Shown one piece after another: positions 1-7,468 of a DNA stretch of 32,960 nt; position 1 is the stretch's first letter; every line of letters begins with the position of its first letter. This DNA is from Syntrophomonadaceae bacterium (GTDB lineage Bacteria; Bacillota; Dethiobacteria; DTU022; PWGO01). The position numbers were made by a program, and so were the translations under genes. The DNA lies in the NCBI GenBank assembly GCA_003554525.1, contig PWGO01000028.1, forward strand, positions 1 through 32,960. The letters run 5' to 3'. The notes under the pieces were generated by a model that saw only the letters and a program-made list of their open reading frames with translations, did no database searches and was not told the DNA's origin.

Positions 1-2
1 AA

Positions 3-1238
3 GTGAAAATATATCCTGATAGTATAGCCCTAAACAAACTTTGGCATGTGTCCTATCTCTGTAAAGATATCTGGAATCACTTTAACGAAGATAGGCGCAA
101 TAACAGAACCAACTTTTATGAGCAAAAAAGAGAGCTTCCCAAGCTCAAGAAAGCTAACCCCGAGTATAAAATACCTTCTTCTCAGGTATTACAGGAAGTA
201 GTTAAATTACTGGATTCCGGCTGGCGGATGTTCTTTACTAAGCACAAAAACGGCAATACCAACGTTAAACCACCCAGGTTTAAGTCCTACAAATATTTCT
301 TTACTCAGAAATATAATCAGCGTGGGACTTCATTTGAAATTAAAGACCATGTTTTGCGCCTGGCTTACGGTAAAAACCTAAATGACTGGATCGAAATTGA
401 CCTGCCTGAATTAAACTACAACGCTGATAATATTAAAAATGTAACTATCTTTTATGATGAAGTGCAAAATAACTGGTACGTATCACTTATCCGACAAGTT
501 GAGCTTCCCCATCAAAAGAACGCTTCACATACAATTTACTTCGATCCCGGTTGCAAGATGACTTTAACCGGCATTAAAACTGATCACTCTGTATGGGAAT
601 ACGATATTAACCCGCTGCGGGAATTGAATCTTAAACACTATCAATTGATAGACTATCTCAAATCCAAACGTGACAAAAAGAAGAAAGGTTCTAAGCGTTG
701 GCGTAAGCTGAATAAGTCTATCAAGAATGTTTATCGCAAGATCAGCACTCAGACCAAGCAATATCTGCATAAAATAGCCAACCAGATACTAGAAGATCAT
801 CCCGATTGCAACTTCCAGATCGGTAATTGGCACAAACAGAAGACGCTTGCCGATACCGGCATTAAGTTTGTTGATAAGCGCATCAATCGACAGGTGCTGA
901 ATAACAACCCTGTTAAGCGGCTCGTTGGATACCTGCAGTATAAAGCCCTACTTAAAGGACAGCAGGTAGACGAATTCAACGAGAGGGGTACTACTTCTAC
1001 CTGCTCGTGCTGCGGTGAAAAACAAAAAATGCCACCCGGTAAGCGTGTTTTTAATTGCATGGTTTGCAGTTTTAAGACAGAACGAGATATTAATTCTACG
1101 TTGAATTTCTTGAAAAAGTTTTCTTATGCTTCGTGGCAGAGCCTGAGCAGTAAGCTCAGTATCGCCAGATGCGGATTTAACCCTACATCTGGCGAAAACC
1201 GAAGGTTCGAGAATCGAACTGTCATCCTAAACTACTAG
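3..1238 (+). CDS. tnpB: TnpB-like IS200/IS605-family RNA-guided nuclease/transposase accessory protein (5' end probably cut by window edge)
   Basis: 411 codons open from a GTG at the first bases of the window; the first residues (VKIYPD) match the usual position a few residues inside a TnpB N-terminus, so the true start may lie upstream. The RuvC-I aspartate is visible in IYFDPGCKMTLTG, a four-cysteine zinc ribbon in STCSCCGEKQ and FNCMVCSF, and the RuvC-III aspartate in ERDINSTLNF. At the usual RuvC-II glutamate (IVIEDL-type) the sequence reads FQIGNW, so the glutamate is not where expected; the protein may be inactive, or use a glutamate placed elsewhere as reported for some TnpB lineages. 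Family knowledge: TnpB cleaves DNA guided by an RNA from its own 3' end and helps retain the element. No TnpA is visible. The family assignment is strong; activity is uncertain. Confidence 0.88.
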   Translation: MKIYPDSIALNKLWHVSYLCKDIWNHFNEDRRNNRTNFYEQKRELPKLKKANPEYKIPSSQVLQEVVKLLDSGWRMFFTKHKNGNTNVKPPRFKSYKYFFTQKYNQRGTSFEIKDHVLRLAYGKNLNDWIEIDLPELNYNADNIKNVTIFYDEVQNNWYVSLIRQVELPHQKNASHTIYFDPGCKMTLTGIKTDHSVWEYDINPLRELNLKHYQLIDYLKSKRDKKKKGSKRWRKLNKSIKNVYRKISTQTKQYLHKIANQILEDHPDCNFQIGNWHKQKTLADTGIKFVDKRINRQVLNNNPVKRLVGYLQYKALLKGQQVDEFNERGTTSTCSCCGEKQKMPPGKRVFNCMVCSFKTERDINSTLNFLKKFSYASWQSLSSKLSIARCGFNPTSGENRRFENRTVILNY

Positions 1239-1263
1239 GATGCACGGGGTCTACGACCCCGTG
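1143..1263 (+). ncRNA. Five tandem hairpins at the tnpB 3' end, candidate omegaRNA scaffold
   Basis: Five perfect stems follow one another across the end of tnpB and just beyond. They are CTGAGC/GCTCAG (1143-1159), TCGCCAGATG/CATCTGGCGA (1162-1195), GTTCGA/TCGAAC (1205-1219), CATCCTA/TAGGATG (1223-1242) and CACGGGGTC/GACCCCGTG (1243-1263, 9 bp with a 3-nt loop). The hexamer AGGATG recurs at 1264-1269, so the fourth stem has an alternative partner. TnpB guide RNAs come from exactly this position, with the guide lying just past the element end. The exact element end and guide cannot be fixed from this sequence. The last stem could instead be a transposition end hairpin. Confidence 0.45.
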
Positions 1264-1280
1264 AGGATGTCACCGTTATA

Positions 1281-1502
1281 ATGGCGGTTGCTGTAGCCTA
1301 CCTGCTTGGCCCTGCTGTGGGCCGCATAATACAGTTTGTTTTTACCACCTCGCCTTCCGTGGATGATCTGGAGATCACAGGGGTACAGGTAGCAAGTTCT
1401 CAAGGTGTTATGGGAGGACTTCTGGGAGGCCACGGGGGCAGCTATTTGGTAAGGACTGCACCGGTGAGAAGTAGAAGAGAAATGAAACAGTTAAAAAGCT
1501 GA
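1281..1502 (+). CDS. Unrecognised 73-residue reading frame, possible 3' remnant of a gene interrupted by the tnpB element
   Basis: The frame begins with a hydrophobic stretch (AVAVAYLLGPAVGRIIQFVF) and continues with a glycine-rich segment (GVMGGLLGGHGG) and a basic tail. There is no convincing ribosome-binding site: GAGG lies 15 nt from the ATG. The same frame is open back to the tnpB stop, through the hairpin region of the element. This pattern suggests the C-terminal end of an older membrane-associated gene rather than a complete small gene. It sits 26 bases before rsmB, in the place where Clostridia often have conserved genes of the fmt-rsmB region. I do not recognise the family and assign no function. 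Confidence 0.35.
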   Translation: MAVAVAYLLGPAVGRIIQFVFTTSPSVDDLEITGVQVASSQGVMGGLLGGHGGSYLVRTAPVRSRREMKQLKS

Positions 1503-7250: not shown

Positions 7251-7291
7251 AATGTTGCTGTTTAAAAATTAAATAGGTTATGGATTAATAT

Positions 7292-7433
7292 TTTCCTTCG
7301 GGGTCTGGTGAGAAAGCCTGTCAGCTTTCAATTCCGAACCGGCGGTAATCCCTGCCCGGGGTAGCCCGCGAGCCGCGAGGTTGATCCGGTGAGATTCCGG
7401 AGCCGACAGTATAGTCTGGAGGAGAGAAGGAAA
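7292..7433 (+). promoter_or_regulatory. FMN riboswitch (RFN element)
   Basis: The conserved RFN core is readable: closing stem P1 pairs TTTCCTTC (7292-7299) with GAAGGAAA (7426-7433). Inside it come GGGTCTGGTGAGAAAGCC, CCGAACCGGCGGTAAT, GCCCGCGAGC, GATCCGGTGAGATTCCGG and GCCGACAGTATAGTCTGG. It is followed at once by a terminator and ribD. FMN binding should favour the terminator and lower expression of the rib genes. Confidence 0.97.
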
Positions 7434-7468
7434 CGAAAGCCTTTGTTTTCTTATGTAGGTTTGCAGTA

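Follow-up and report, generated by a model that had tools for sequence, protein, structure and literature searches.

A putative guide-RNA scaffold overlapping the 3′ end of tnpB and the right end of an IS200/IS605-type transposon

Why should a tnpB gene run, through its last codons and a short distance beyond them, into five consecutive perfect hairpins? The question arises at the very start of the window, by which we mean the whole stretch of DNA analysed here, namely, bases 1-32,960 of contig C179 in genome G000 (190 contigs), with the left end of the element and its tnpA lying off the contig. In our view, the five hairpins belong to an IS200/IS605-type transposon and build up the scaffold of its guide RNA (omega-RNA, or reRNA), which coincides in part with the 3′ end of tnpB and with the element's right end; we assign this reading a probability of about 0.9. 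The RNA would be of a known kind, but its sequence, and the Fanzor-like active site of the accompanying TnpB, are unusual. The features discussed below are collected in Table 1.

Table 1. Features at the right end of the element and in its flank (positions in the window).
Feature	Position	Strand	Remarks
tnpB	3-1238	+	411 aa as read, 5′ end cut by contig start; D181 (DPG), relocated E327, D362
Proposed omega-RNA (reRNA) scaffold	1134-1273	+	Last 140 nt of the element; covariation, codon-level constraint, covariance-model match to L117
H1	1143-1148/1154-1159	+	6 bp; 98.0% of cells paired; no two-sided change counted; absent from RNAalifold prediction
H2	1162-1171/1186-1195	+	10 bp in window; 4 pairs with two-sided changes
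H3	1205-1210/1214-1219	+	6 bp; 3 pairs with two-sided changes
H4	1223-1229/1236-1242	+	7 bp; holds tnpB stop codon of window copy; 1 pair with two-sided change
GATG, proposed G_R for Y1 transposase	1239-1242	+	Immediately 5′ of H5; by analogy with IS608 (PMC5934647)
H5	1243-1251/1255-1263	+	9 bp; 2 pairs with two-sided changes; proposed RNA 3′ hairpin and subterminal right-end DNA hairpin
Second AGGATG	1264-1269	+	Can replace H4 by pairing with CATCCT 1223-1228; no two-sided change
TCAC, proposed C_R	1270-1273	+	Last four bases of element; homology stop in 11 of 12 copies
Predicted guide	1274-1289	+	CGTTATAATGGCGGTT; first 16 nt of right flank; by analogy with ISDra2 reRNA (PMC8612924)
3′ remnant of DUF6391-like gene	1275-1502	+	Pfam 22.9 bits, below cut-off of 33; upstream of rsmB-like gene

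The array occupies positions 1143-1263, with stems of 6, 10, 6, 7 and 9 bp. An earlier note on this DNA had described five perfect hairpins across the tnpB stop codon, continuing 25 bases past the gene; its positions and lengths proved exact, the stop being TAG at 1236-1238 and the array ending at 1263. Following 1000 dinucleotide shuffles of these 121 nt, the maximum was two hairpins and 15 bp, compared with five hairpins and 38 bp in the real sequence. When 121-base windows were moved in steps of 10 over all 32,960 bases, the top ones fell here, with 32 bp versus 23 in the next region. The folding z-score is −8.81 for 1143-1263 as DNA and −5.54 for 1100-1300 as RNA, and in both cases none of 200 shuffles was equally stable. 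A search of Rfam gave no family match at the gathering score, nor any up to an E-value of 5 for 1000-1400, and a known RNA family was rejected on these grounds.

Relatives of the element show where it ends. Among fifteen stretches from relatives compared with window 1-1300, 12 reach the right end, two match inside tnpB only, and one does not match at all. The match stops at window position 1273 in 11 of these 12 copies, and 5 nt later, at 1278, in the remaining one (L041); past 1273 the flanks differ between copies, and the last bases of the element are TGAGGATGTCAC. The idea that copies of the element would define the right end and the guide had been put forward before. A DNA search found no other copy in the own genome, and it was copies elsewhere that delivered the end at 1273 and a guide start at 1274. 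As expected of an omega-RNA, the proposed scaffold spans the end of the tnpB coding sequence and the right end of the element and finishes at the boundary, the distance from H1 to this point being 131 nt.

The left end is supplied by genome G073, which harbours four full copies with 98-99.7% identity to one another. In all four, the left end consists of TTTAG, then AAAATACCGGCGGGAATC and CTTGGGGTCTATTGACCCCGAG, and the inner stem-loop GGGGTCTATTGACCCC is common to the left end and to H5. Their first 150 nt contain one perfect hairpin of at least 6 bp, which is H5-like, so that H1-H4 are confined to the right end. None of their four right flanks begins with TTTAG, and these relatives are inserted 3′ to this fixed short target without target duplication. 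Subterminal hairpins are thus present at both ends in the four full G073 copies, the window holding the right end only.

The ends also suggest a function for H5 at the DNA level. In IS608 from Helicobacter pylori, as described in PMC5934647, the tetranucleotides G_L (AAAG) and G_R (GAAT), located 5′ of the hairpin feet, pair with C_L (TTAC) and C_R (TCAA). From these letters we derived our own pairing rule (position 1 with 2, 2 with 1, and 4 with 4), and the same three pairs form at both ends here, between AATC and TTAG on the left, and between GATG (1239-1242) and TCAC (1270-1273) on the right. Given this pairing logic at both ends, and GATG lying directly 5′ of H5, H5 in all likelihood acts as the DNA hairpin of the right end. 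The element therefore resembles IS608, as far as the latter is described, in the subterminal hairpin at each end, the tetranucleotide 5′ of its foot and the C_L/C_R pairing logic, whereas the letters differ (TTAG/AATC and TCAC/GATG here, TTAC/AAAG and TCAA/GAAT in IS608).

Short derivatives of these ends were noticed in other genomes. Twenty solo elements, 49-50 nt long in the 18 that were measured, each comprising the left-end start, one hairpin and the right-end tail, were found as L080, L086, L089 and L100-L116 in genomes G018, G023, G033, G040, G047, G048, G073, G080 and G082, i.e., in 9 of 97 genomes of the class when up to 3 mismatches are allowed. TTAG precedes 18 of the 20 and TTTAG 14 of them, and the matches of 25-34 bits that were examined are mostly remnants of this type. 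In appearance they are crossover products of the hairpins that the left and right ends share, resembling solo LTRs in this respect, and, carrying AATC rather than GATG before the hairpin, they should not be excised according to the guide rule. The PATE-like IS605 derivative described in PMC7290912 is likewise short and made of ends only, but it measures about 271 nt and has parts of both ends, whereas the solo remnants have 49-50 nt with one shared hairpin.

If the array acts as RNA, its pairs should be kept while its letters change, and the covariation check set by the earlier note was run over 12 distinct right ends. In this alignment, 93.6% of the cells are paired in the structure, and 10 of its 38 pairs carry two-sided changes, a count that none of 500 shuffles reached (shuffled mean 3.4 pairs; 2 to 5 pairs when the structure was slid along the alignment). 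H2, H3, H4 and H5 all contain such pairs (Table 1), which supports the previous reading of a functional RNA at the end of tnpB, and a conserved, covarying secondary structure is what characterises an omega-RNA. As H5 is also a DNA signal, the constraint is partly not one on RNA. The count was made without L034 and L036, which are identical to L035 over the right-end stretch, and without L076, L091 and the G073 site 1660685 (88.0, 86.8 and 58.1 bits, respectively), judged to be decayed, whereas L045 and L046 were retained in spite of their short length. It leans heavily on the distant row L117, without which 6 pairs are counted and one of 500 shuffles is as high; a covariance model built without L117 detects the right end of L117 at 112 bits.

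The individual stems deserve some comments. The inner pair of H1 is masked by an alignment gap, being A-U in the Candidatus Aerophobetes copy versus C-G in the others. Only 2 of the 11 rows scored retain the outermost T-A pair of H2, leaving a stem of 9 bp in most rows. RNAalifold, run on the same alignment with no structure given, predicts H2-H5 but not H1, whose region it places in a pairing with the tail. With regard to H4, its two-sided change opposes an A-T pair in the window to G-C in the other 11 rows (CTA..TAG versus CTG..CAG), which keeps the pair and shifts the stop codon into H4; the tnpB frame of L033, one of the G073 copies, continues to VILNYQDARGLLTP.

A second line of evidence comes from the codons that the array overlaps. 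In the last 34 codons, the window shares 53-56% amino acid identity and 72-75% nucleotide identity with L117 and G073, whereas the other 375-377 codons share 63-66% and 61-66%, respectively. Synonymous codons are kept in 13 of 18 cases against L117 and 15 of 17 against G073 in the last 34 codons, compared with 90 of 227 (Fisher p 0.011) and 100 of 237 (p 0.0002), respectively, in the upstream codons. The comparison of L117 with G073 gives a similar picture (13 of 18 versus 81 of 232, p 0.004). The protein being less conserved, and the bases and synonymous codons more conserved, than upstream, these comparisons indicate that the last 34 codons of tnpB are under selection at the level of the nucleic acid.

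Which pairing the tail adopts is a more delicate question. AGGATG occurs twice within 1100-1300, at 1237 and 1264, and both occurrences are able to pair with CATCCT 1223-1228, from which the earlier note had deduced two competing structures. This deduction stands in part: the repeat and both pairings are kept, but a two-sided change occurs in H4 and none in the alternative helix. A rival scheme would have the RNA function in the CATCCT 1223-1228/AGGATG 1264-1269 fold and the DNA in the H4 fold, with a switch between guide-RNA and transposition states. H5 aside, no other well-kept partner of the tail is longer than this helix, which has 71 of 72 cells paired over its six-pair core, and in the G082 copy its six pairs all form while H4 carries a mismatch. 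Over the same 12 rows, however, H4 has 98.8% of its cells paired, against 94.8% for the alternative including its two outer pairs, each of which fails in 2 of the 12 rows. Moreover, the tail sequence is also constrained by the cleavage site, and the ISDra2 tail pairs instead with a far upstream stretch, forming a pseudoknot, according to PMC10097598. We consider the switch rather unlikely. For a guide-adjacent pseudoknot of the ISDra2 type, the element here offers candidate tail partners only, located in nearly invariant tail sequence. TGGC 1134-1137 can pair with GTCA 1269-1272 in 10 of the 10 rows having letters there, its TGG also encoding a Trp that the three proteins (window, G073 and L117) have in common. 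Since the tail hardly varies, covariation is silent on which tail pairing or pseudoknot works.

The hairpins might also be DNA structures serving the Y1 transposase only, with no functional RNA involved. H5 and its flanking tetranucleotides would suit an IS608-type end, the inner stem-loop recurs at the left end, and the relatives are transposon ends. However, covariation is seen in H2, H3 and one pair of H4, although the first 150 nt of the left end contain nothing equivalent to H1-H4; IS608, in the description given by PMC5934647, has one hairpin per end. An explanation by DNA structure only thus appears very improbable. As for an intrinsic terminator or a chance run of hairpins in coding sequence, the GC-rich hairpins close to the stop codon would fit, but a terminator scan of 900-1600 gave three sites, all on the minus strand, so that a terminator was rejected for want of a plus-strand site, and with none of 1000 shuffles close to the array and with covarying stems, this origin can practically be dismissed.

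For the guide-RNA scaffold, we propose the following sequence of events. Transcription would yield an RNA scaffold carrying the flank from 1274 as guide, probably its first 16 to 20 nt, and this RNA would be bound by TnpB. Once the donor site has been re-sealed, with TTTAG (the TAM) preceding the guide sequence, it would be cleaved by TnpB, and repair from the sister copy would restore the transposon, as proposed for ISDra2. H5 would fulfil a second function as a single-stranded DNA hairpin for the Y1 transposase, with GATG pairing with TCAC.

The right flank has been analysed with regard to the predicted guide and to the interrupted locus. Elsewhere in the own genome, the guide matches one site with 3 mismatches, and a reversed control gave 3 matches, i.e., the result is not above chance. 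Concerning the DUF6391-like remnant, the gene downstream of it also follows DUF6391 in the relative L053. In a tblastn comparison, 11 of 11 matching relatives align from the first query residue, and their frame extends upstream where the window shows none; the query having been cut at 1275, this comparison alone does not place the junction. Joined to TTTAG, the flank would encode F-S-V in frame, a place occupied in relatives by F-Y-I or L-N-V, for example. On contig C85 of the same genome, a tnpA-like start (L061, positions 1-170) overlaps the stop of an fmt-like gene, with no left-end hairpin visible by eye between them. L061 may be the left half of the window locus after a deletion, as rsmB is preceded by a peptidase-like gene and DUF6391 in the relative L053. 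Further along the window, an FMN riboswitch (7290-7435, 98.9 bits) lies upstream of riboflavin-type genes.

Among the closest known systems is ISDra2 of Deinococcus radiodurans, also of the IS200/IS605 family. As described in PMC10097598 and PMC8612924, its RNA, like the scaffold proposed here, overlaps the tnpB 3′ end and the right end and stops at the boundary, its guide is taken from the flank, and a 5-nt motif sits at the left junction; the scaffold size is similar (116 nt in PMC10097598, 131 nt here). The element described here differs from ISDra2 in its five serial hairpins, in TTTAG replacing TTGAT, and in a W at the place of the canonical RuvC glutamate.

The protein itself is a recognisable TnpB. 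It matches NF040570 guided_TnpB at 162.7 bits (cut-off 100) and the Pfam families Cas12f1-like_TNB and OrfB_IS605, and PADLOC returned Cas12-like models and one Csx1, as expected for TnpB. The AlphaFold model has a mean pLDDT of 83.5, falling below 50 for residues 280-300, near the canonical glutamate place, and its best solved fold match is the ISDra2 TnpB-omegaRNA complex 8h1j (Z 22.7, rmsd 4.2, 338 residues). In the phmmer alignment with ISDra2 TnpB, the W faces the canonical RuvC glutamate, and nuclease activity would instead rest on the relocated glutamate E327. This residue is found six positions before the zinc finger and is combined with DPG in RuvC1, a feature shared with Fanzor2 and the pro-Fanzor TnpBs. 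The proteins of the window, G073 and L117 all satisfy the published expression for DPG and relocated glutamate. Eleven of the loci compared match the DPG expression and are copies of these three proteins, 23 have DP followed by another residue together with the relocated glutamate, and L124 and L138 match the D-not-P-G form; the motif table comprises only ORFs caught by the zinc-finger pattern.

According to PMC10711439, DPG with relocated glutamate is the Fanzor fingerprint, restricted to a narrow clade and found in less than 1% of homologs, and the TnpBs carrying it are mostly cyanobacterial and associated with an IS607 TnpA. Unlike these pro-Fanzor TnpBs and Fanzor2, the protein described here is not cyanobacterial, and the IS607 transposase context that defines pro-Fanzors is replaced by IS200/IS605 ends and, in relatives, a Y1 transposase. 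With the RuvC half as query, the best solved sequence match is the mimivirus Fanzor2 9b0l (E 5.3e-9), followed by 9j09 (Cas12n, 1.2e-7) and ISDra2 TnpB (3.2e-4). With the whole protein, ISDra2 TnpB comes first and Fanzor2 is unlisted even up to an E-value of 10; by fold, ISDra2 TnpB is also nearer than Fanzor2. In a 26-row tree without Fanzor or pro-Fanzor rows, 14 relocated-glutamate proteins group together (100/99), with a long-branch warning that includes the window lineage. A large TnpB census of 2023 may contain such proteins. It is conceivable, if doubtful, that the lineage formed by the window, G073 and Candidatus Aerophobetes proteins belongs to the Fanzor-type TnpB clade as a bacterial branch that travels with a Y1 single-strand transposase.

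The Y1 (HUH) transposase is found outside the window. The Candidatus Aerophobetes contig JAGHCO010000154.1 (L117, positions 34-1779) codes for a TnpB that is 62% identical to that of the window, with an open Y1 tnpA directly upstream (Y1_Tnp, 1.2e-40). None of the four full G073 copies (L033-L036) has an unbroken tnpA, its pieces lying in different frames, but their ends are intact; the own genome has the tnpA-like start on contig C85. The presence of L117 on an Aerophobetes contig would reflect either transfer between phyla or misbinning. The only other TnpB found in the own genome (G000:C66:4125-5207, L003) is 31% identical and has DPN and the relocated glutamate.

Scanning genome contigs with the single protein gave no match; scanning them with an alignment gave 60 loci, among which L117 alone is close (62%), the next being at 26%. 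Of 398 genomes sampled from the phylum, G000 and G073 only have a match at E 1e-25, and in 17 genomes of L117's phylum, a close copy is present in L117's own genome only, the next reaching 32%. The 935 plasmid records all fall below 60% identity, and 25 loci on viral contigs, with best segments at 22-27%, served as outgroup rows only.

Taken as a guide RNA, the array would add a family without match in Rfam 15 that has clear covariation, a defined boundary, a target motif and a predicted guide. It would also place one stretch of DNA under three demands together, as it would have to encode a protein, a guide RNA and a DNA hairpin for the transposase. With regard to the protein, DPG and a relocated glutamate in an element with IS200/IS605 ends bear on the narrow-clade view presented in PMC10711439. 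If the doubtful placement within a Fanzor-type clade were true, the Fanzor catalytic fingerprint would have existed in IS200/IS605 elements having their own, differently built guide RNA.
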